A stretch of DNA of 64,000 bases from an uncultured Geobacteraceae bacterium (GTDB taxonomy: Bacteria > Desulfobacterota > Desulfuromonadia > Geobacterales > Pseudopelobacteraceae): assembly GCA_903939115.1 (NCBI GenBank), contig CAJAFV010000036.1, positions 62,001 through 126,000 of the forward strand, given 5' to 3'. The notes under the pieces are model-generated. The model was not told the DNA's origin, made no database searches, and saw only the letters and a list, made by a program, of their open reading frames with translations. How positions within the stretch are numbered: position 1 is the first letter of the stretch; every line of letters starts with the position of its first letter. The translations under genes were made by a program, and so were the position numbers. Positions 2,957 to 31,653 of the stretch are shown piece after piece.

Positions 2957-3860
2957 TAGAGTTGTCGTATGCGCCTATCATAATGTCGGGTATCGCTGTC
3001 TGGAGGAACTGCTTCGTCAAGGAGCGGACATCCGGCTTGTCTTTACCCATGAGGATTCCCCGACGGAAGAGATCTGGTTCCAGTCGGTGCGTGAATTAGC
3101 AGAACAGCATGGTATCCCGTATGTAACCTCGGAAATAAATGAACCGGAAAATATGGCGCGCGTTCGGGAAATTGCTCCTGATTTCCTGCTTTCTTTTTAC
3201 TACCGAAACATGATCAAACCGGAGGTTCTGGCTCTGGCATCCAGAGGGGCATTAAACCTGCACGGCTCTTATCTCCCCAGGTACCGTGGCCGGGTTCCGG
3301 TAAACTGGGCAGTGATCAACGGTGAGACAGAAACAGGCGCAACCCTTCACTATATGGTCGCCAAGCCGGATGCCGGCGATATTGTCGATCAAGAAAAAGT
3401 TGCAATAGCATTTACTGACACCGCCTTCGATGTTTTTAATAATCTGACCGAAGCGGCGGTTGGCGTAATCAGCCGCGCATGGCCGCAGCTGCTTGGCGGT
3501 ACAGCGCCCCGCATTTCCATGGATCTGCACCAGGGCAGCTATTTTGGTGGCCGCAAACCGGCTGACGGCAAAATAGAGTGGACGAAAAGTGCGGTACAGA
3601 CATACAACCTGATTCGAGGCGTCACCCACCCGTACCCGGGGGCATTTACAGAGCTTGATGGGAAGCGGGTAGTTATCTGGCAGGCCTGGCCAGTTTCAGG
3701 GGTCGGCGCACCGGCCCGAATTATTTCCACTGACCCGCTACTGGTCGGCACTGGCGACGGATTATTAGAGATTCGCGTGCTGCAGATGGAAGGCGAATCG
3801 GAAGTATCTGCTGCTACTTTTGTAGATAAAATATCAGGAACAACGGCATATTTTACATAA
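2949..3860 (+). CDS. arnA: UDP-Ara4N formyltransferase (stand-alone ArnA N-terminal domain)
   Basis: A 303-residue protein matching only the N-terminal formyltransferase half of enterobacterial ArnA. It transfers formyl from 10-formyl-THF to UDP-Ara4N, making the substrate of ArnC. Seen: FSFYYRNMI and the formyltransferase signature LNLHGSYLPRYRGRVP with the catalytic His (HG), followed by a C-terminal OB-like domain (ISTDPLLVGTGDG). The ATG at 2949 lies inside the end of arnC (8-base overlap). An ATG 12 bases earlier is possible but would add four residues not seen in relatives. In E. coli this domain is fused to the oxidative decarboxylase, whereas here the two activities are in consecutive genes. 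Confidence 0.88.
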   Translation: MTDRVVVCAYHNVGYRCLEELLRQGADIRLVFTHEDSPTEEIWFQSVRELAEQHGIPYVTSEINEPENMARVREIAPDFLLSFYYRNMIKPEVLALASRGALNLHGSYLPRYRGRVPVNWAVINGETETGATLHYMVAKPDAGDIVDQEKVAIAFTDTAFDVFNNLTEAAVGVISRAWPQLLGGTAPRISMDLHQGSYFGGRKPADGKIEWTKSAVQTYNLIRGVTHPYPGAFTELDGKRVVIWQAWPVSGVGAPARIISTDPLLVGTGDGLLEIRVLQMEGESEVSAATFVDKISGTTAYFT

Positions 3861-3901
3861 CAATACCAACTTATCAGTCCAGTCCAAAGGAGAACAGTTC
3901 A

Positions 3902-4942
3902 ATGAAAGTATTAATCCTGGGTGTCAACGGGTTCATCGGTAACGCCCTTACTCACCGTATTCTGACCACCACCGACTGGGAAGTCTACGGTCTTGACATG
4001 GCCTGCGACAAACTGGAACGTTCAATTGGCGATGCCCGCTTCCACTTTCTGGAAGGTGATATCACCATCAACAAGGAGTGGATCGAGTACAACATTAAAA
4101 AATGTGATGTTGTACTGCCGCTCGTGGCTATCGCCACTCCGGTTACCTATGTCAAGGATCCACTGCGGGTTTTTGAACTCGATTTCGAGGAGAATCTGAA
4201 GATTGTCCGATTGTGCGCAAAGTACAAGAAACGGGTCATCTTTCCTTCTACTTCAGAAGTGTACGGCATGAGTCCGGATCGGGAATTTGACGAGGAAACC
4301 TCGCCATTGATGCTCGGCCCCATCAACAAGGAACGTTGGATCTACTCCTGTGCCAAACAGATGCTGGACAGGGTGATTTATGCCTATGGCAACCATGAGG
4401 GGTTGGAATATACTCTGTTCCGCCCCTTCAACTGGATCGGCCCCAAACTTGACAGCATAAGCACCGCAAAGGAAGGGAGCTCCAGGGTTCTTACCCAGTT
4501 CCTTTATAACATTCTGGCGGGCGAGCCTATCCAGTTAGTAGACGGAGGTGATCAGCGTCGTTCCTTCACCTTTGTGGAAGATGGCATCGATTGCCTGATG
4601 AAGATTATAGCCAATAAAAACGGCTGCGCCAGCGGCGGTATTTTTAATATCGGCAACCCGAATAACGACCTGTCGGTCAGAGAACTTGCCGAGAAATTGA
4701 TTGCCTTGGTCAAGGAGTATCCGGCGTATCGGGAAAAAGCCGAGAACTGCCGGTTAATAGAGGTAACTTCTGGTGATTTCTACGGCAAGGGATATCAGGA
4801 TATGTTGACGCGGGTCCCATCGGTAAAAAATGCTAAAGAAAAACTCGGCTGGGAGCCCAAAACAACTGTTGACGATGCTCTGCGTGCAACACTGAATTTC
4901 TATCTGGTTGAAGATCGGGAGAAAATCGAGCACCTGCTGTGA
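3902..4942 (+). CDS. arnA: UDP-glucuronate oxidative decarboxylase (stand-alone ArnA C-terminal domain)
   Basis: A 346-residue extended short-chain dehydrogenase matching the C-terminal half of ArnA, which oxidises and decarboxylates UDP-GlcA to UDP-4-keto-arabinose with NAD+. Seen: the Rossmann glycine motif GVNGFIG at 8-14, the Ser/Thr of PSTSEVYG, the catalytic Tyr-Lys pair in YSCAKQ, and RRSFTFVEDG, the ArnA-type arginine region. It sits 41 bp after the formyltransferase gene with an AAAGGAG ribosome site. It could in principle be a UDP-xylose synthase, but the closeness to ArnA and the context favour the Ara4N route. This is the first committed step of the pathway. Confidence 0.88.
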   Translation: MKVLILGVNGFIGNALTHRILTTTDWEVYGLDMACDKLERSIGDARFHFLEGDITINKEWIEYNIKKCDVVLPLVAIATPVTYVKDPLRVFELDFEENLKIVRLCAKYKKRVIFPSTSEVYGMSPDREFDEETSPLMLGPINKERWIYSCAKQMLDRVIYAYGNHEGLEYTLFRPFNWIGPKLDSISTAKEGSSRVLTQFLYNILAGEPIQLVDGGDQRRSFTFVEDGIDCLMKIIANKNGCASGGIFNIGNPNNDLSVRELAEKLIALVKEYPAYREKAENCRLIEVTSGDFYGKGYQDMLTRVPSVKNAKEKLGWEPKTTVDDALRATLNFYLVEDREKIEHLL

Positions 4943-25386: not shown

Positions 25387-26280
25387 GTGAGCAGTTCCAT
25401 GCCGAGCTACGTTGAACCACTCTTTCGTCCTCCCAGCGAAGCAAACAGCCTGATATTCCAAATTACGGTCGGTTGCTCTCAAAATCAATGCTGTTTCTGC
25501 GGAATGTATAAGAGTAAAACATTTCATGTTCGCCCGCTTCAGGACATTCTGGATGAAATATCCGGTATCCCCTCTGGGTACCTCTCCCGTATTGACCGGA
25601 TTTTTCTGGCTGATGGCGATGCGTTGGTGTATCCGTTTGAGGATCTTCGCACTATTCTGGATGCCCTGGCGGCAACCTTTCCCGGCCTGACACGAGTTTC
25701 CTCCTATGCTTCTCCCAACAGTCTCACCACAAAAAATGCTGAGCAGTTGCGTGAATTGCGTTCAAAACGACTAAAGATTCTCTATTTTGGCTTGGAGTCT
25801 GGCGATGATGCCACACTTCTGACGATTAATAAGGGCTTTACGTCAGCCCGGATGGCTGAGTTGGCACTGATGGCCCGTGCAGCAGGCATGAAGCTTTCTG
25901 TAACGGCGATTCTCGGATTGGCCGGACGTGAGCTAAGTCTGCAGCATGCGCGGGCAACTGCTGAGTGGATAAACCTCGTCAATCCGGAATACTTCTCTTT
26001 GCTGACGATGTTTCATCGCCATAACGATGAATTTATTCGCACTCTCACGCAATGCACCCACCGGGAACTAATGCTGGAGACACGGGAAATGCTGCTGCAT
26101 CTCCATCCCGTCAAAACCATTCTCCGCTCCAATCATGTATCAAATTTCCTCAACCTTTCCGGCAGCTATCCTAAGGATCGCACCCGGTTAATCACTGATA
26201 TGGATATCGCCCTCACGCACGCGGCGCTCAGTGCCGGTTTTTTGGATGATGTACCTTCATATCAGGAGGAGTACTATTGA
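25387..26280 (+). CDS. Radical SAM protein
   Basis: A 297-residue radical SAM enzyme. The [4Fe-4S] motif is C30-x4-C35-x2-C38 in GCSQNQCCFCGMYKSKTF, the spacing of the 'CSxNxCxFC' subgroup; C36 is an extra cysteine. FLADGDALVY and FGLESGDDATLLTINKG match the SAM-binding and Elp3-like core. Substrate unknown. It lies 7 bp after the RIO kinase in the same direction. The start may be the GTG at 25387 or the ATG at 25399; neither has a clear ribosome site. Confidence 0.82.
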   Translation: MSSSMPSYVEPLFRPPSEANSLIFQITVGCSQNQCCFCGMYKSKTFHVRPLQDILDEISGIPSGYLSRIDRIFLADGDALVYPFEDLRTILDALAATFPGLTRVSSYASPNSLTTKNAEQLRELRSKRLKILYFGLESGDDATLLTINKGFTSARMAELALMARAAGMKLSVTAILGLAGRELSLQHARATAEWINLVNPEYFSLLTMFHRHNDEFIRTLTQCTHRELMLETREMLLHLHPVKTILRSNHVSNFLNLSGSYPKDRTRLITDMDIALTHAALSAGFLDDVPSYQEEYY

Positions 26281-26327
26281 GTTAACCTCTTTTACCTTGC
26301 CGTAATCCCTTTGGAAATGTTATTTTG

Positions 26328-26360
26328 CCTCCGCTTTGAATCATCTGCGGAGGTTTTTTT
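26328..26360 (+). promoter_or_regulatory. Terminator-like hairpin that contains the aroC ribosome site
   Basis: CCTCCGC (26328-26334) pairs with GCGGAGG (26347-26353), 12-base loop, followed by seven Ts and then directly the aroC ATG at 26361. The 3' arm holds GGAGG, the only ribosome site of aroC, 7 bases before the ATG. The element may be the terminator of the preceding genes, an attenuator, or a switch that hides the ribosome site. Confidence 0.6.
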
Positions 26361-27521
26361 ATGAGTATATTTCGTTATCTGACGGCTGGAGAGTCTCACG
26401 GACCTCAGTTGAGTACAATTATCGAAGGGCTGCCGGCCGGGATGCGTCTCTCTGTTGAAACAGTTAATGATGACCTGGCACTGCGACAGTTGGGATATGG
26501 TCGTGGTGACCGGATGAAAATAGAAAAGGATACCGCTCAAATCCTTTCGGGTGTGCGTTGGGGAGAAACGATCGGATCGCCGGTGACTCTGGTAATCAGG
26601 AATCGTGATTGGGAGAACTGGTGCGAAAAAATGTCATCTCTTCCCGAATTTCGTGATGATGCCAGTGCTGTGACCCGTCCTCGTCCCGGACATGCCGATT
26701 TATCCGGTGCGATGAAATACCACCACACTGATGTACGCAACGTCCTTGAACGCTCCAGTGGTCGTGAAACTGCGGCACGCGTCGCCGTTGGCGGTGTGGC
26801 AAAAGCGCTGCTGGCTGAGTTCGGCATTAAAGTGGGTGGCTATGTCACTGAACTTGGCGGCATCAGCGCTACTACTCCTGATGAGCCGTTCGAAGACCTG
26901 TGGCTCACGGCGGCCGGTTCTGAAACTTCGTGCTGTGATCCGATAGCTGAACTTGATATGAAGCGTGTTATTGATGCCGCTCAGTCTGGTGGGGATACGT
27001 TGGGAGGTGTTGTCGAGGTTCAGGTAATCGGCGTCCCGCCAGGACTTGGCAGTTACGTGCAGTGGGACAGGAAACTGGATGCACGGTTGGCTATGGCTTT
27101 GATGAGCGTGCAGGCAATCAAGGGGGTTGAAGTCGGTATCGGTTTTGAAGCCTCCCGCAGGCCTGGTTCACGGGTGCATGACGAAATCTTCTATAAGGAC
27201 GGCTATTACCGCGCCAGCAATAATGCCGGTGGTATTGAGGGTGGCATGTCAAATGGTGAGCCGATTGTCGTGCGGGCCGCCATGAAGCCGATTCCTACGC
27301 TCTATTCGCCGTTGCGTTCGGTTGACATGGTTACCCATGAACCTTTTGAGGCGACTGTCGAACGTTCAGATACCTGTGCCGTGCCAGCCGCGTTGGTAGT
27401 TGCCAAGGCGGTAGTGGCAATCGAAATTGCCAACGCCCTGCTGGAAAAATTTGGTGGCGACTCTATCGTTGAAATTCGCCGCAACCTTGAAGGCTACCGC
27501 GAGCAGATACGAAATGCCTGA
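26361..27521 (+). CDS. aroC: Chorismate synthase
   Basis: A 386-residue FMN-dependent enzyme making chorismate from EPSP, the last shikimate-pathway step. Signatures seen: GESHGPQL at 12-19, [35 protein letters not shown] in pieces around residues 111-145, and [16 protein letters not shown]. The length is normal. Its ribosome site lies in a terminator-like hairpin. Next come a shikimate kinase relic, aroB and aroQ, so most of the local genes serve chorismate supply. Confidence 0.96.
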
Positions 27522-27526
27522 AAAAA

Positions 27527-27676
27527 ATGCCGATCCTGTCCGGTTTTATGGGGAGCGGCGTATCATTAAGCGATCGTGAACAATTTTATGCTGATGCTGA
27601 TATTAGAATTGACACGGATGGGAAATCCGTGGAAGATGTCGGAGCTGATTCTGTGCCGTTTGAAGGGGTTTTCTGA
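27527..27676 (+). pseudogene. aroK: Probable relic of shikimate kinase (aroK)
   Basis: A 49-codon open frame fills the space between aroC and aroB exactly, ending one base before the aroB GTG. It begins MPILSGFMGSG, which resembles the start of AroK (ILTGFMGTGKS), and then reads ADADIRIDTDGKSVEDVG, resembling the AroK 'DTD..IE...G.SI' region. The P-loop Lys-Ser/Thr is missing (GSGVSLSD) and roughly 120 C-terminal residues are absent, so kinase activity is not possible. aroK stands at this place beside aroB in many bacteria. Part of the similarity is short, so chance cannot be excluded. Confidence 0.5.
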
Positions 27677-28756
27677 GTGAAAGTGCTGAACGTAAATCTT
27701 GCCGAAAGCAGTTATGATATTGTCATTGGACATGGCGTTCTTGATACACTTGGCGAGAGGTGCCGCGCCGTTGGACTGAAGGGCATGGCCGCCGTTATCA
27801 CAAATCCGACTGTTGCTGCGCTGTATGCTGCACAAGTAATAAAAACTCTGGAGAACTCAGGGTATACTGTTGCGCAGATAGAAATGCCGGATGGTGAAGA
27901 GTATAAGAACAGTTCCACATTGAATCAGATTTATGATGATCTTCTTGCTGCAGGTGTTGATCGCAGCTCTTTTGTGGTAGCGCTTGGCGGTGGTGTCGTG
28001 GGAGACGTCGCCGGTTATGCCGCCGCTACCTGGCTGAGAGGCATCCCTTTTGTCCAGGTGCCGACCACGCTGTTAGCTCAGGTGGACAGCAGTGTCGGCG
28101 GCAAGACCGGCATTGATCACCCCAAGGGTAAAAATCTGATCGGCGCTTTTTATCAACCCAAATTGGTACTGATTGATGTTGACACTCTGGCAACTCTTGA
28201 TCAGCGCCAGTTCCGTGCCGGTCTTGGTGAAGTTATAAAATACGGAGTGGCTGTAGACCTTCCTTTTTTTGAATATATAGAAGCTAACATCGTCGCAGTT
28301 CTGGCAATGAATCCGGAGCTCCTGATTGAAATCATCCATCGGTGCTGTCAATTAAAGGCTCAGGTGGTTGAGCTGGACGAAAAAGAAGCCGGTTTGCGTG
28401 CCATTCTCAACTATGGTCACACTCTTGGACACGCATTTGAATCTATTTCTGATTACCGGGGTTTGGTGCATGGCGAGGCGGTTGCAATTGGAATGGTACT
28501 GGCCGCAAAGGTTTCGACCGCTTTAGGGTACTGCACTCTGGATGACGTTGGACGGATTTCTGCTTTGCTTACCCGCTGCGGGTTACCGGTTGATATTCCG
28601 CAGTATGACCGTCAGCAACTTTTACATGCAATTGCCGCCGATAAAAAATCCAAAAGTGGCAGTATTACTTTTATTTGTAATCAGGGCATCGGCACGTATG
28701 CCATGTCGCAGCATACTCCTGAGGAACTGCTCATTCTGAGCGGGTTGGAGGCGTGA
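27677..28756 (+). CDS. aroB: 3-dehydroquinate synthase
   Basis: A 359-residue NAD- and metal-dependent enzyme turning DAHP into 3-dehydroquinate. Seen: the NAD/substrate loop ALGGGVVGDVAGYAAATWLRG near 95-115, PTTLLAQVDSSVGGKTGID, and metal-ligand His in NYGHTLGHAFE and VHGEAVAIGM. The start is GTG directly after the relic's stop, so the upstream frame still leads ribosomes into aroB. Its end overlaps the region of the next gene's ribosome site. Confidence 0.95.
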   Translation: MKVLNVNLAESSYDIVIGHGVLDTLGERCRAVGLKGMAAVITNPTVAALYAAQVIKTLENSGYTVAQIEMPDGEEYKNSSTLNQIYDDLLAAGVDRSSFVVALGGGVVGDVAGYAAATWLRGIPFVQVPTTLLAQVDSSVGGKTGIDHPKGKNLIGAFYQPKLVLIDVDTLATLDQRQFRAGLGEVIKYGVAVDLPFFEYIEANIVAVLAMNPELLIEIIHRCCQLKAQVVELDEKEAGLRAILNYGHTLGHAFESISDYRGLVHGEAVAIGMVLAAKVSTALGYCTLDDVGRISALLTRCGLPVDIPQYDRQQLLHAIAADKKSKSGSITFICNQGIGTYAMSQHTPEELLILSGLEA

Positions 28757-28758
28757 CC

Positions 28759-29772
28759 ATGCAGGATTCAGCTTCATTCTGGACAGCTATAAAAAACCTT
28801 GATGAACAGCTCTCCAAAGCACCGGACTCATTCTGTTTTGCCCGCCTGTCATCCGTCTACCTTAAGGCTGGCCTGATTGACGACGCGCTTCATGTGGCGC
28901 GAGAGGGTAGTGCGAAGCATCCCGATTATCTGGCCGGGCAGAGAGCTCTTTCGAAGGCGTGTCATGCCAAAGGTTTAAACGACGAGGCCTTGGCCGCGCT
29001 GCAGCGTATTGTCGTGGGAATCCCCGAGGACATACCCTCACAAAAGCTGCTGGGACGTCTCCTTATTGAGGCGGGTGATCAGGGCTCAGCTATTCAGGTT
29101 TTTCGTATCGCCCTGGAGTTTGCTCCGGACGATGTGGAGTGTCGTCTTCAGCTCGAATCTCTTGAACGATCAGCGGGAACTGTAGAATACGCCTTTATAT
29201 CTGATGATGGCGGTGAAGATAATAAATATGATGAATATGACGAAAATGATGAAAATGATGAAGAGATTATTGAGGACCTTGAAATACTGGATGAGTTTGA
29301 TGAAGATTACTCGGAAACGGAACCTCTGGTACCGGAAACAGCTCACGATCCTCTATCAACCGCCACCCTGGCCGAACTCTATGTTAAACAGGGCTTCATT
29401 AATCAAGCGCTGGAAATTTATCGTACCATTCTGAACGATTATCCGACGGATCAAGCCATTGCAGAGCGGGTAGCTGAGCTTGAGGCCGCTTTAACAGAAT
29501 CTGCAGGGAAACCAGACGATACTGTTGAAGAGGAAGATGATGAAGTACCGGTTTTAAGCACACCCGCTGAAGATTTTTTTCAGGCAACTGCACCGATATT
29601 AGTTCCGGAACCTGATACACTCCCTCTGTTTGAAAGTCATCATGCCTGCACAGACGTTTCCGCGTTTGAGAGTTCCGCTCCGGCAGTGCCGTTGCAGGGG
29701 ATAGCGGACAATGCGCGTGCTACTCTTGACGGGTGGCTTGAAAATATCAGGAGGATTAAGTCATGTCGCTAA
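28759..29772 (+). CDS. TPR-repeat protein with acidic linker
   Basis: A 337-residue cytoplasmic protein without signal peptide. Residues about 20-140 form tetratricopeptide-like repeats (AGLIDDALHVAREGSAKHPDY; AGDQGSAIQVFRIALEFAPDD), and another TPR lies near 200-235 (KQGFINQALEIYRTILNDYP). Between them is a very acidic stretch of Asp/Glu/Asn/Tyr encoded by degenerate GATGAA-type repeats (29205-29320). The C-terminus is also acidic. I chose the ATG at 28759, 7 bases after GGAGG. It overlaps the Roadblock gene by 10 bases, which suggests a two-protein unit. Function unknown. Confidence 0.75.
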   Translation: MQDSASFWTAIKNLDEQLSKAPDSFCFARLSSVYLKAGLIDDALHVAREGSAKHPDYLAGQRALSKACHAKGLNDEALAALQRIVVGIPEDIPSQKLLGRLLIEAGDQGSAIQVFRIALEFAPDDVECRLQLESLERSAGTVEYAFISDDGGEDNKYDEYDENDENDEEIIEDLEILDEFDEDYSETEPLVPETAHDPLSTATLAELYVKQGFINQALEIYRTILNDYPTDQAIAERVAELEAALTESAGKPDDTVEEEDDEVPVLSTPAEDFFQATAPILVPEPDTLPLFESHHACTDVSAFESSAPAVPLQGIADNARATLDGWLENIRRIKSCR

Positions 29773-30125
29773 GAGAGTTACTGAAAACGATTGTCCAGAG
29801 CGTTGACGGATCACTGGCCGCACTGGTTATGGCCTATGATGGTATTCCAATTGACGAGGTAATTGTTGAACAGTCCGAGTTTGATATGCAGCTTTTGTCT
29901 GTTGAGTATGCAACGGTGCTTAAAGAGATCAAGCGTGCGGTTGATGTTATCAAAATGGGTGACCTTGAAGAGGTTTCGATCTCAACCTCCCGAACCTCTG
30001 TTGTCGTCAGGATTTTAAATGATGATCTTTTTTCCGTTCTTATTTTGAGCCGTGACGGAAATATCGGCAAAGGGCGGTATATGCTCAAACTAAAGTCATT
30101 TGAAATACTCCAGGAGCTTTCTTGA
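29763..30125 (+). CDS. Roadblock/LC7 domain protein (MglB-like)
   Basis: A 120-residue single-domain Roadblock/LC7 protein: [26 protein letters not shown] at the N-terminus, then the typical strands [23 protein letters not shown]. Such proteins, for example MglB, dimerise and regulate small Ras-like GTPases in polarity and motility. No small GTPase gene is in view. It overlaps the TPR gene upstream and aroQ downstream (4 bases), so it is made from the aro transcript. Confidence 0.8.
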
Positions 30126-30568
30126 TACTAAAATTTCTGATACTGCATGGCCCCAATCTGAATTTACTCGGGAAGCGCGAACCGGCAATCTACGGCAGTC
30201 AAACACTTGATGATATCAATTCTTCGCTGCTGGAGTTGTCTGCTGAATTACGGAGTGAGCTTTCTTTTTTTCAATCGAACAGCGAAGGGGAGTTGATTAA
30301 TGCTATTCAGGCCGCTGCAGAAGATTGCCACGGCATCCTGATCAATCCGGCCGCTTACACTCACTCCAGCATTGCAATTCGAGATGCCCTGTCGGCAGTG
30401 GGGCTTCCTACGGTTGAGGTACATCTATCCAATATCCACCGACGGGAGACATTCCGCCATATCAGTATGGTTGCTCCTGTTGCAGTAGGTCAGATTTGCG
30501 GTTTTGGCAGTGACAGTTACCTGCTTGGTTTACGGGCATTGTCTAATTACGTCAAAAACAGTTTGTAG
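30122..30568 (+). CDS. aroQ: 3-dehydroquinate dehydratase, type II
   Basis: A 148-residue type II dehydroquinase (dehydroquinate to dehydroshikimate). Seen: [21 protein letters not shown] with the catalytic Tyr, [16 protein letters not shown] with the conserved Asn/His region, and [15 protein letters not shown]. The homology starts at codon 3-4, so the TTG at 30122 is the best start, with AGGAG 6 bases upstream. It overlaps the Roadblock gene by 4 bases. Confidence 0.94.
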
Positions 30569-30582
30569 TCAGGGTTTCATTC

Positions 30583-31653
30583 ATGCTAAAAAACAGACGC
30601 TTTTATCTTAACCCGTTCTTTGAAGAATTTTCGCTTAATGCGATACTGTTTACTGATCTCAGGAATATCCGCTTTCTGTGCGGCTTCACCGGATCTGAGG
30701 GTGCCCTGCTGATAACACCGGGTCATGCGTGGTTTTTGTGTGACTCGCGCTATACCGCACAGGCTGCTGAAGAGGTTCAGGGTGCGGAAGTCAGGGAATG
30801 CGGCGCAGTGCGCATTGAAACTATCGCCGCTTTGGCAGCTGAACAGAGTCTTGACCGGATCGGATTTGAGGCGGCCCACACGACGGTCAGTTCCTATCGG
30901 CGCTTATCTGAAAAATTAAACAGTATTGAATTGATTGAACTTGGCCCCCGACTCGATGAAATCCGTATCCGTAAAGACAGTGCCGAAACCAATCTGCTCT
31001 CTGCTGTTGCCACGCTTTCGTCACTGTCTCTGACTGCTATTCTGTCCGCGATAAAGCCTGGAGTACGGGAGGTAGAAGTTGCCCTCGCTCTTGAGCTTGA
31101 AATGCGGCGCCGTGGCGCAGACGGCAAGGCCTTTGATTTTATTGTCGCATCAGGCGAGCGTGGCGCCATGCCGCATGGTGTTGCCAGTAACAAGATAATT
31201 CAATCCGGTGAACTGGTTACAATTGATTTTGGCGCTTTAAAAGACGGCTATCACTCCGATGAGACGGTTACTGTTGCCTGCGGAAAACCGGAGCTTCGGG
31301 CGGAAGAAATTCACTCGATCGTCAGGGCGGCACATGATTTAGCTATCAGTGCCGTCAGACCGGGCATCAGCTGCAAGGATCTTGATGAAATTGCCCGTGG
31401 CTATATCCGCGAAAAAGGGTACGAAGAGTATTTTGGTCATGGATTAGGCCATGGCATCGGTTTGGAAGTTCATGAAATGCCGACGCTTTCGCCGCGCAGC
31501 ACCTCACTGCTTGATGAGGGCATGGTTATTACTATTGAACCGGGAATTTATATACCCGGTTTTGGTGGCGTTAGGATTGAGGATACCGTAATTGTAACCG
31601 GTGACGGTTGCGATGTTCTTACCAGTGCCGATAAACGCTTGCTTGTTTTGTAA
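30583..31653 (+). CDS. M24 family metallopeptidase (Xaa-Pro aminopeptidase type)
   Basis: A 356-residue creatinase-fold peptidase. N-terminal creatinase_N domain (to about 125), then the catalytic domain with metal ligands: TIDFGALKDGYHSDET (two Asp), HGLGHGIGLEVHEMP (His), ITIEPGIYIPG (Glu) and VRIEDTV (Glu). It removes N-terminal residues next to proline or splits X-Pro dipeptides. It sits between aroQ and accB, as PepQ/YqhT-type genes do in many bacteria. Confidence 0.9.
   Translation: MLKNRRFYLNPFFEEFSLNAILFTDLRNIRFLCGFTGSEGALLITPGHAWFLCDSRYTAQAAEEVQGAEVRECGAVRIETIAALAAEQSLDRIGFEAAHTTVSSYRRLSEKLNSIELIELGPRLDEIRIRKDSAETNLLSAVATLSSLSLTAILSAIKPGVREVEVALALELEMRRRGADGKAFDFIVASGERGAMPHGVASNKIIQSGELVTIDFGALKDGYHSDETVTVACGKPELRAEEIHSIVRAAHDLAISAVRPGISCKDLDEIARGYIREKGYEEYFGHGLGHGIGLEVHEMPTLSPRSTSLLDEGMVITIEPGIYIPGFGGVRIEDTVIVTGDGCDVLTSADKRLLVL

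Follow-up and report, generated by a model that had tools for sequence, protein, structure and literature searches.

Between the genes for chorismate synthase (aroC) and 3-dehydroquinate synthase (aroB) of this uncultured Geobacteraceae bacterium, whose genome of 4.76 Mb is available in 99 contigs, there is a frame of 49 codons with pieces reminiscent of shikimate kinase. The locus raises the question of what this short frame is and why a part of it is kept in relatives. The window referred to below is the whole stretch of 64,000 nucleotides that was analysed. The features at the locus are as follows.

26361-27521, plus strand: aroC, chorismate synthase (PF01264, E 2.5e-119; TIGR00033 above cut-off)
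27514-27558, plus strand: 5' remnant of aroK with the native start at 27514 and the P-loop start GFMGSG (blastn block common with the intact locus of the relative G008, ending at 27558)
27527-27676, plus strand: frame of 49 codons starting with ATG (49 residues, from the open-reading-frame list)
27559-27571, plus strand: deletion junction at which about 354 nt of aroK are gone
27572-27676, plus strand: 3' remnant of aroK with a 2-nt loss near 27641 (blastn and blastp against intact aroK)
27662-27668, plus strand: GAAGGGG, probable ribosome-binding site of aroB (read from the sequence)
27677-28756, plus strand: aroB, 3-dehydroquinate synthase (TIGR01357 above cut-off)

Identity of the 49-codon frame

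A preliminary description of this DNA had proposed a shikimate kinase (AroK) relic between aroC and aroB, and comparison with relatives, which carry a full aroK at the same place, bears this out. Alignment with these aroK genes gives a significant match: residues 14-41 of the frame share 86% identity with residues 132-159 of the AroK piece of G008 (blastp, E 5e-14), and residues 3-13 correspond to the N-terminus of AroK at 73-82% identity in several relatives. Two shikimate kinase models of NCBIfam hit residues 14-39 (E 0.009 and 0.02, far below the cut-offs), and a Pfam search of the 49-residue frame gave no match.

The C-terminal two thirds had been thought to be lost; it is instead the middle of the gene that is gone. 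The two matched aroK blocks are separated by 367 nt in G008 and by 13 nt here (blastn), so that about 354 nt, or about 118 codons, have been lost in frame, and the remnant is comprised of about 11 N-terminal codons fused to about 28 C-terminal codons, the DADIRIDTDGKSVEDVG piece being the C-terminal end of AroK. Functional shikimate kinases have a Walker A motif of the form GxxGxGK[ST]. The motif is incomplete in the frame (GFMGSGV), and the absence of the P-loop lysine noted earlier is confirmed. Although its N- and C-terminal pieces are homologous to AroK (PF01202), the product lacks this lysine and the middle of the protein and is therefore not an active kinase. The frame had also been described as intact and ending right before the aroB GTG. 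It is indeed open and its TGA directly abuts the GTG at 27677, but one extra A has put the native aroK start (ATG, 27514) out of frame and the 2-nt loss near 27641 alters the final residues. With significant homology to AroK, and with 28 of 38 genus loci carrying aroK in this position, the 49-codon frame is an aroK pseudogene.

Repeated loss of aroK in the genus

The genus sample consists of 39 genomes, mostly metagenome bins with incomplete contigs, which are related and not independent samples; 38 aroB loci were used, as G020 gave no aroB match. The 28 loci with aroK before aroB include a copy cut by a contig end (G029). In the other ten just 102-168 nt lie between aroC and aroB, and these hold an aroK remnant. 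A tree of aroC and aroB gives nine losses of aroK if loss is irreversible. The remnants of G022 and G025 have the same deletion junction, and those of G000, G031 and G024 might go back to one loss event; with both groups merged, aroK would have been lost at least seven times in the genus, assuming no regain, the exact number being limited by the weak support (22-54%) of the middle branches of the tree. Deletion junctions vary among the remnants, and the same stretch of DNA is kept in all ten.

Probable replacement by a divergent aroE-aroK pair

If the relic is dead, a shikimate kinase was expected elsewhere in the genome, and the whole-genome search has identified a complete kinase at another locus (L001). 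It is encoded directly 3' of a divergent aroE, with a gene of the phage integrase family upstream. Such an aroE-linked kinase is present in nine of the ten remnant genomes, and in the tenth, G025, which is 66% complete, the divergent aroE lies close to the end of a contig. All ten remnant genomes contain the divergent aroE, and none of the 28 genomes with intact aroK does; among the latter, 25 encode the native aroE, three (G002, G023 and G036) have no aroE match and four (G008, G009, G018 and G026) show an extra, weaker aroE-like match. A search for the aroE-linked kinase in the 39 genus genomes has no non-remnant genome among its matches, and a separate kinase listing names 20 of the other genus genomes as being without a match.

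The aroE and kinase genes are adjacent in eight remnant genomes and are on different contigs in G010. In that genome the replacement kinase (L058, contig C2) has been observed beside a third kinase-like gene and apart from aroE on C13, the pair being split. The flanking sequences fetched for the nine kinase loci have no protein of at least 100 residues in common at E 1e-8 and just two short DNA matches (58 and 85 nt), between G000 and G031; the sites therefore appear different. At the order level a kinase of this type is encoded in 35 of 141 genomes, and it is present in all six fetched genomes with an aroC-aroB gap of 120 nt or less (G042, G044, G046, G047, G050 and G056).

We infer that the aroE-aroK pair would replace the lost AroK enzyme and would have spread horizontally. 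The situation resembles xenologous displacement in that a diverged pair would do the work of the resident aroE and aroK; it differs in that two resident genes that are not linked would both have disappeared in seven or more lineages within a single genus, and in that the location of the pair varies.

Two other kinase-like loci have been noticed. L003 (G000:C63, 1486-1797, minus strand) is a second, truncated copy of the aroE-linked kinase; it covers residues about 88-167 at 69-71% identity and is apparently a pseudogene. L002 (G000:C89, 1456-1992) encodes a third shikimate-kinase-like protein with TGGSAVY at the position where the usual shikimate kinase motif is TGGG. Many genomes of the genus, both with and without intact aroK, give weaker PF01202 hits of this type.

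A conserved DNA element in the 3' end of aroK

Within the retained 3' end the following features are considered.

27599-27640, plus strand: conserved DNA element and proposed region of an internal aroB promoter, kept in all ten remnants
27609-27614, plus strand: TTGACA, proposed -35
27614-27630, plus strand: palindrome ACGGAT-N5-ATCCGT, possible operator or hairpin, without covariation support
27632-27637, plus strand: GAAGAT, proposed -10, 17 nt after TTGACA

Among 25 aroK genes the synonymous identity of the 14 core codons is 0.90, compared with 0.47 for the aroK body, 0.46 for aroC and 0.48 for aroB. This value was reached by none of 200,000 random sets of 14 codons and by none of 648 contiguous windows of aroC and aroB (maximum 0.71). 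High synonymous identity spans codons 135-165 and is thus broader than the core, which counts against the promoter reading given below. Over nine remnants (G025 being left out, as its deletion is common with G022) both hexamers are 100% identical and the spacer 86%, compared with 62% for the upstream 30 nt, 65% downstream and 40% at fourfold sites of aroB. TTGACA-N17-GAAGAT (27609-27637 here) is found in all 38 genus loci, with 68-70 nt from TTGACA to aroB, and the block AAnTCCnT in the spacer is invariant in all 38, equal to the hexamers. Outside the genus TTGACA-N17-GAAGAT occurs in 6 of 17 loci (19 less L065 and L067, taken as G009 and G032; 8 of 19 with both counted), and the 11 loci without it include both Geomonas loci and six without room for aroK.

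Two explanations of the core have been set aside. It has one copy in the genome even when up to three mismatches are allowed, which speaks against origin from a mobile element or repeat, and an overlapping peptide in the +1 frame (MPTPILELTRMGNPWKMSRQRFCAV in many relatives) meets a stop inside the core at four of the 38 loci of the genus (G019, G017, G002 and G059).

The frame had been suggested to be kept as a translation leader, which would couple ribosomes into aroB. Besides the abutting TGA and GTG seen here, the aroK frame is open from the core toward aroB in all ten remnants; it runs up to or into the aroB start in nine and stops 17 nt inside aroB in G007. Many relatives with an intact aroK have a GTGA in which the stop of this gene and the start of aroB overlap. 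However, in five of the ten remnants (G031, G024, G019, G007 and G010) none of ATG, GTG and TTG occurs in frame ahead of the core, and translation of the same DNA behind differing junctions is therefore unlikely to be the thing kept. G019 and G007 even have stops upstream of the core, the native start is out of frame in this genome, and a peptide alone would not demand the conservation of synonymous positions in intact aroK. Since the frame is open in all ten we leave the leader a small chance, and regard it as very improbable. Conservation at synonymous sites, with retention where half of the remnants have no start codon, points to selection on the nucleotides.

Synonymous identity is also raised at the 3' end of aroB (about 28660-28756), up to 0.71 over the last codons examined versus 0.48 for aroB overall, and this is possibly a second embedded signal. 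The region 3' of aroB (28753-30568) encodes a TPR protein with an acidic stretch, whose gene overlaps the aroB end, a small protein with weak roadblock-like matches and a type II dehydroquinase.

Nature of the conserved element

We infer from the sequence that the stretch would be a promoter of sigma-70 type on which aroB depends. It would lie within the last aroK codons, with TTGACA at 27609, a 17-nt spacer and GAAGAT at 27632, and mRNA would start near 27644, giving a leader of about 33 nt with the GAAGGGG ribosome site. The perfect -35, the spacer of 17 nt, the A and T at positions 2 and 6 of GAAGAT and the ribosome site at 27662-27668 all fit an internal aroB promoter, and the -35 and spacing expected of the sigma-70 type are seen in all 38 genus loci. 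Against a plain promoter of this type, GAAGAT agrees with TATAAT in three of six positions, a weak -10 under the threshold of the promoter scan, which found no site in 27480-27720, and the invariant AAnTCCnT exceeds what a plain sigma-70 spacer requires. Also on this side, TTGACA-N17-TANNAT has 15 sites in the genome versus 9 for the control, only a modest excess, and TTGACA-N17-GAAGAT occurs twice, once at aroB.

The weak -10 would also fit an activator-dependent promoter, and the element could be mainly a protein-binding site, a palindromic operator or activator site, alone or over a weak promoter. The palindrome sits between the hexamers, where AAnTCCnT is invariant. Its exact form, however, has no second copy in the genome, so that no regulon is visible, while sites with one mismatch do exist; at least one arm pair is broken in the intact genes of G001, G002, G003 and G058, and L068, L069 and L072 have both hexamers and no palindrome. 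We hold a mainly protein-binding role to be rather unlikely.

The same region could instead form an RNA structure in the aroB leader, with an outer stem GATATT/GATGTC and an inner stem CACGGAT/ATCCGTG. A 49-nt stretch of this genome folds better than shuffles (z -2.6; 6 of 200 shuffles equally good), the stem ends match the bounds of the kept core, and paired cells amount to 89.7%, more than in all 500 shuffles, which related rows can give without structure. Longer stretches, however, fold no better than shuffles (z 0.0 and -1.1). Across 29 rows one cell is changed on both sides, equalled by 174 of 500 shuffles, the covariation score of 0.066 is equalled by 38 of 500, and the apical pair is unpaired in 12 rows. 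RNAalifold gives a different pairing at -0.55 kcal/mol, and an Rfam search of 26200-30700 with E up to 1 gave no match. With covariation barely above shuffles, a structured leader RNA with compensatory stem changes has been rejected, and an RNA structure in general is judged unlikely.

Loss of the native aroE

The promoter reading may be compared with events at the native aroE, which in G008 (882 nt) lies before pilB. It is deleted in this genome, where the aligned flanks omit 786 nt, 34 nt stand there instead and 177 nt separate the upstream gene from pilB.

L182 (G000:C20), 3839-4015: native aroE remnant before pilB, with TTGACA-N17-TACTAT behind it

This promoter-like sequence is located 3' of aroE and before pilB in this genome and in G008, and similar ones are found in several relatives. 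As it is kept beyond the deleted gene, the loss of aroE would likewise have halted before a promoter-like signal of the next gene, there outside the codons. Over the last windows of 26 native aroE loci synonymous identity lies at 0.36-0.48, except for 0.68 in the final window, which runs into ragged and mostly gapped ends.

Proposed course of events and its meaning

In the proposed course the aroE-aroK pair elsewhere would assume both enzyme steps, and loss of the resident aroE and aroK would follow, probably in this order. The losses of aroK would have halted short of its 3' end because this end carries the proposed aroB promoter. We consider it reasonably probable that the locus holds a dead aroK with its middle deleted, that the pair elsewhere has taken over and that the 3' end is kept as the aroB promoter. 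A bolder version appears rather unlikely: the 42-bp stretch would be a regulated control site of an undescribed kind with three invariant blocks (AATTGACAC, AAnTCCnT and GAAGAT), and the promoter hidden in the codons of aroK would either depend on an activator or not be of the sigma-70 type. The dependence of aroB on it would then be so strong that, in seven or more lineages, deletion of aroK went no further than this stretch once a mobile aroE-aroK pair, one that replaces both resident genes time and again, had been gained.

Internal promoters within genes of biosynthetic operons are known, such as trp p2 of E. coli (named among the references of PMC11878033). The likeness to this type would be a promoter-like signal in an upstream gene serving the genes behind it; the difference is that repeated destruction of the host gene has left the signal in place here, and that the promoter is a predicted one with a weak -10. 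A literature search covering titles and the beginnings of abstracts gave no paper on this element or on the aroE-aroK replacement in this group. Neither promoters embedded in genes nor gene displacement is new; what stands out is that natural deletions have repeatedly reduced the gene to a single element.

An essential step of the pathway would have changed hands several times within this one genus, a compact example of such exchange. What is kept after repeated natural deletions of aroK serves as a deletion map marking a probable control element, which is overlooked by gene finders because it lies inside codons. A dead gene may also seem conserved when its protein is not what is being preserved.
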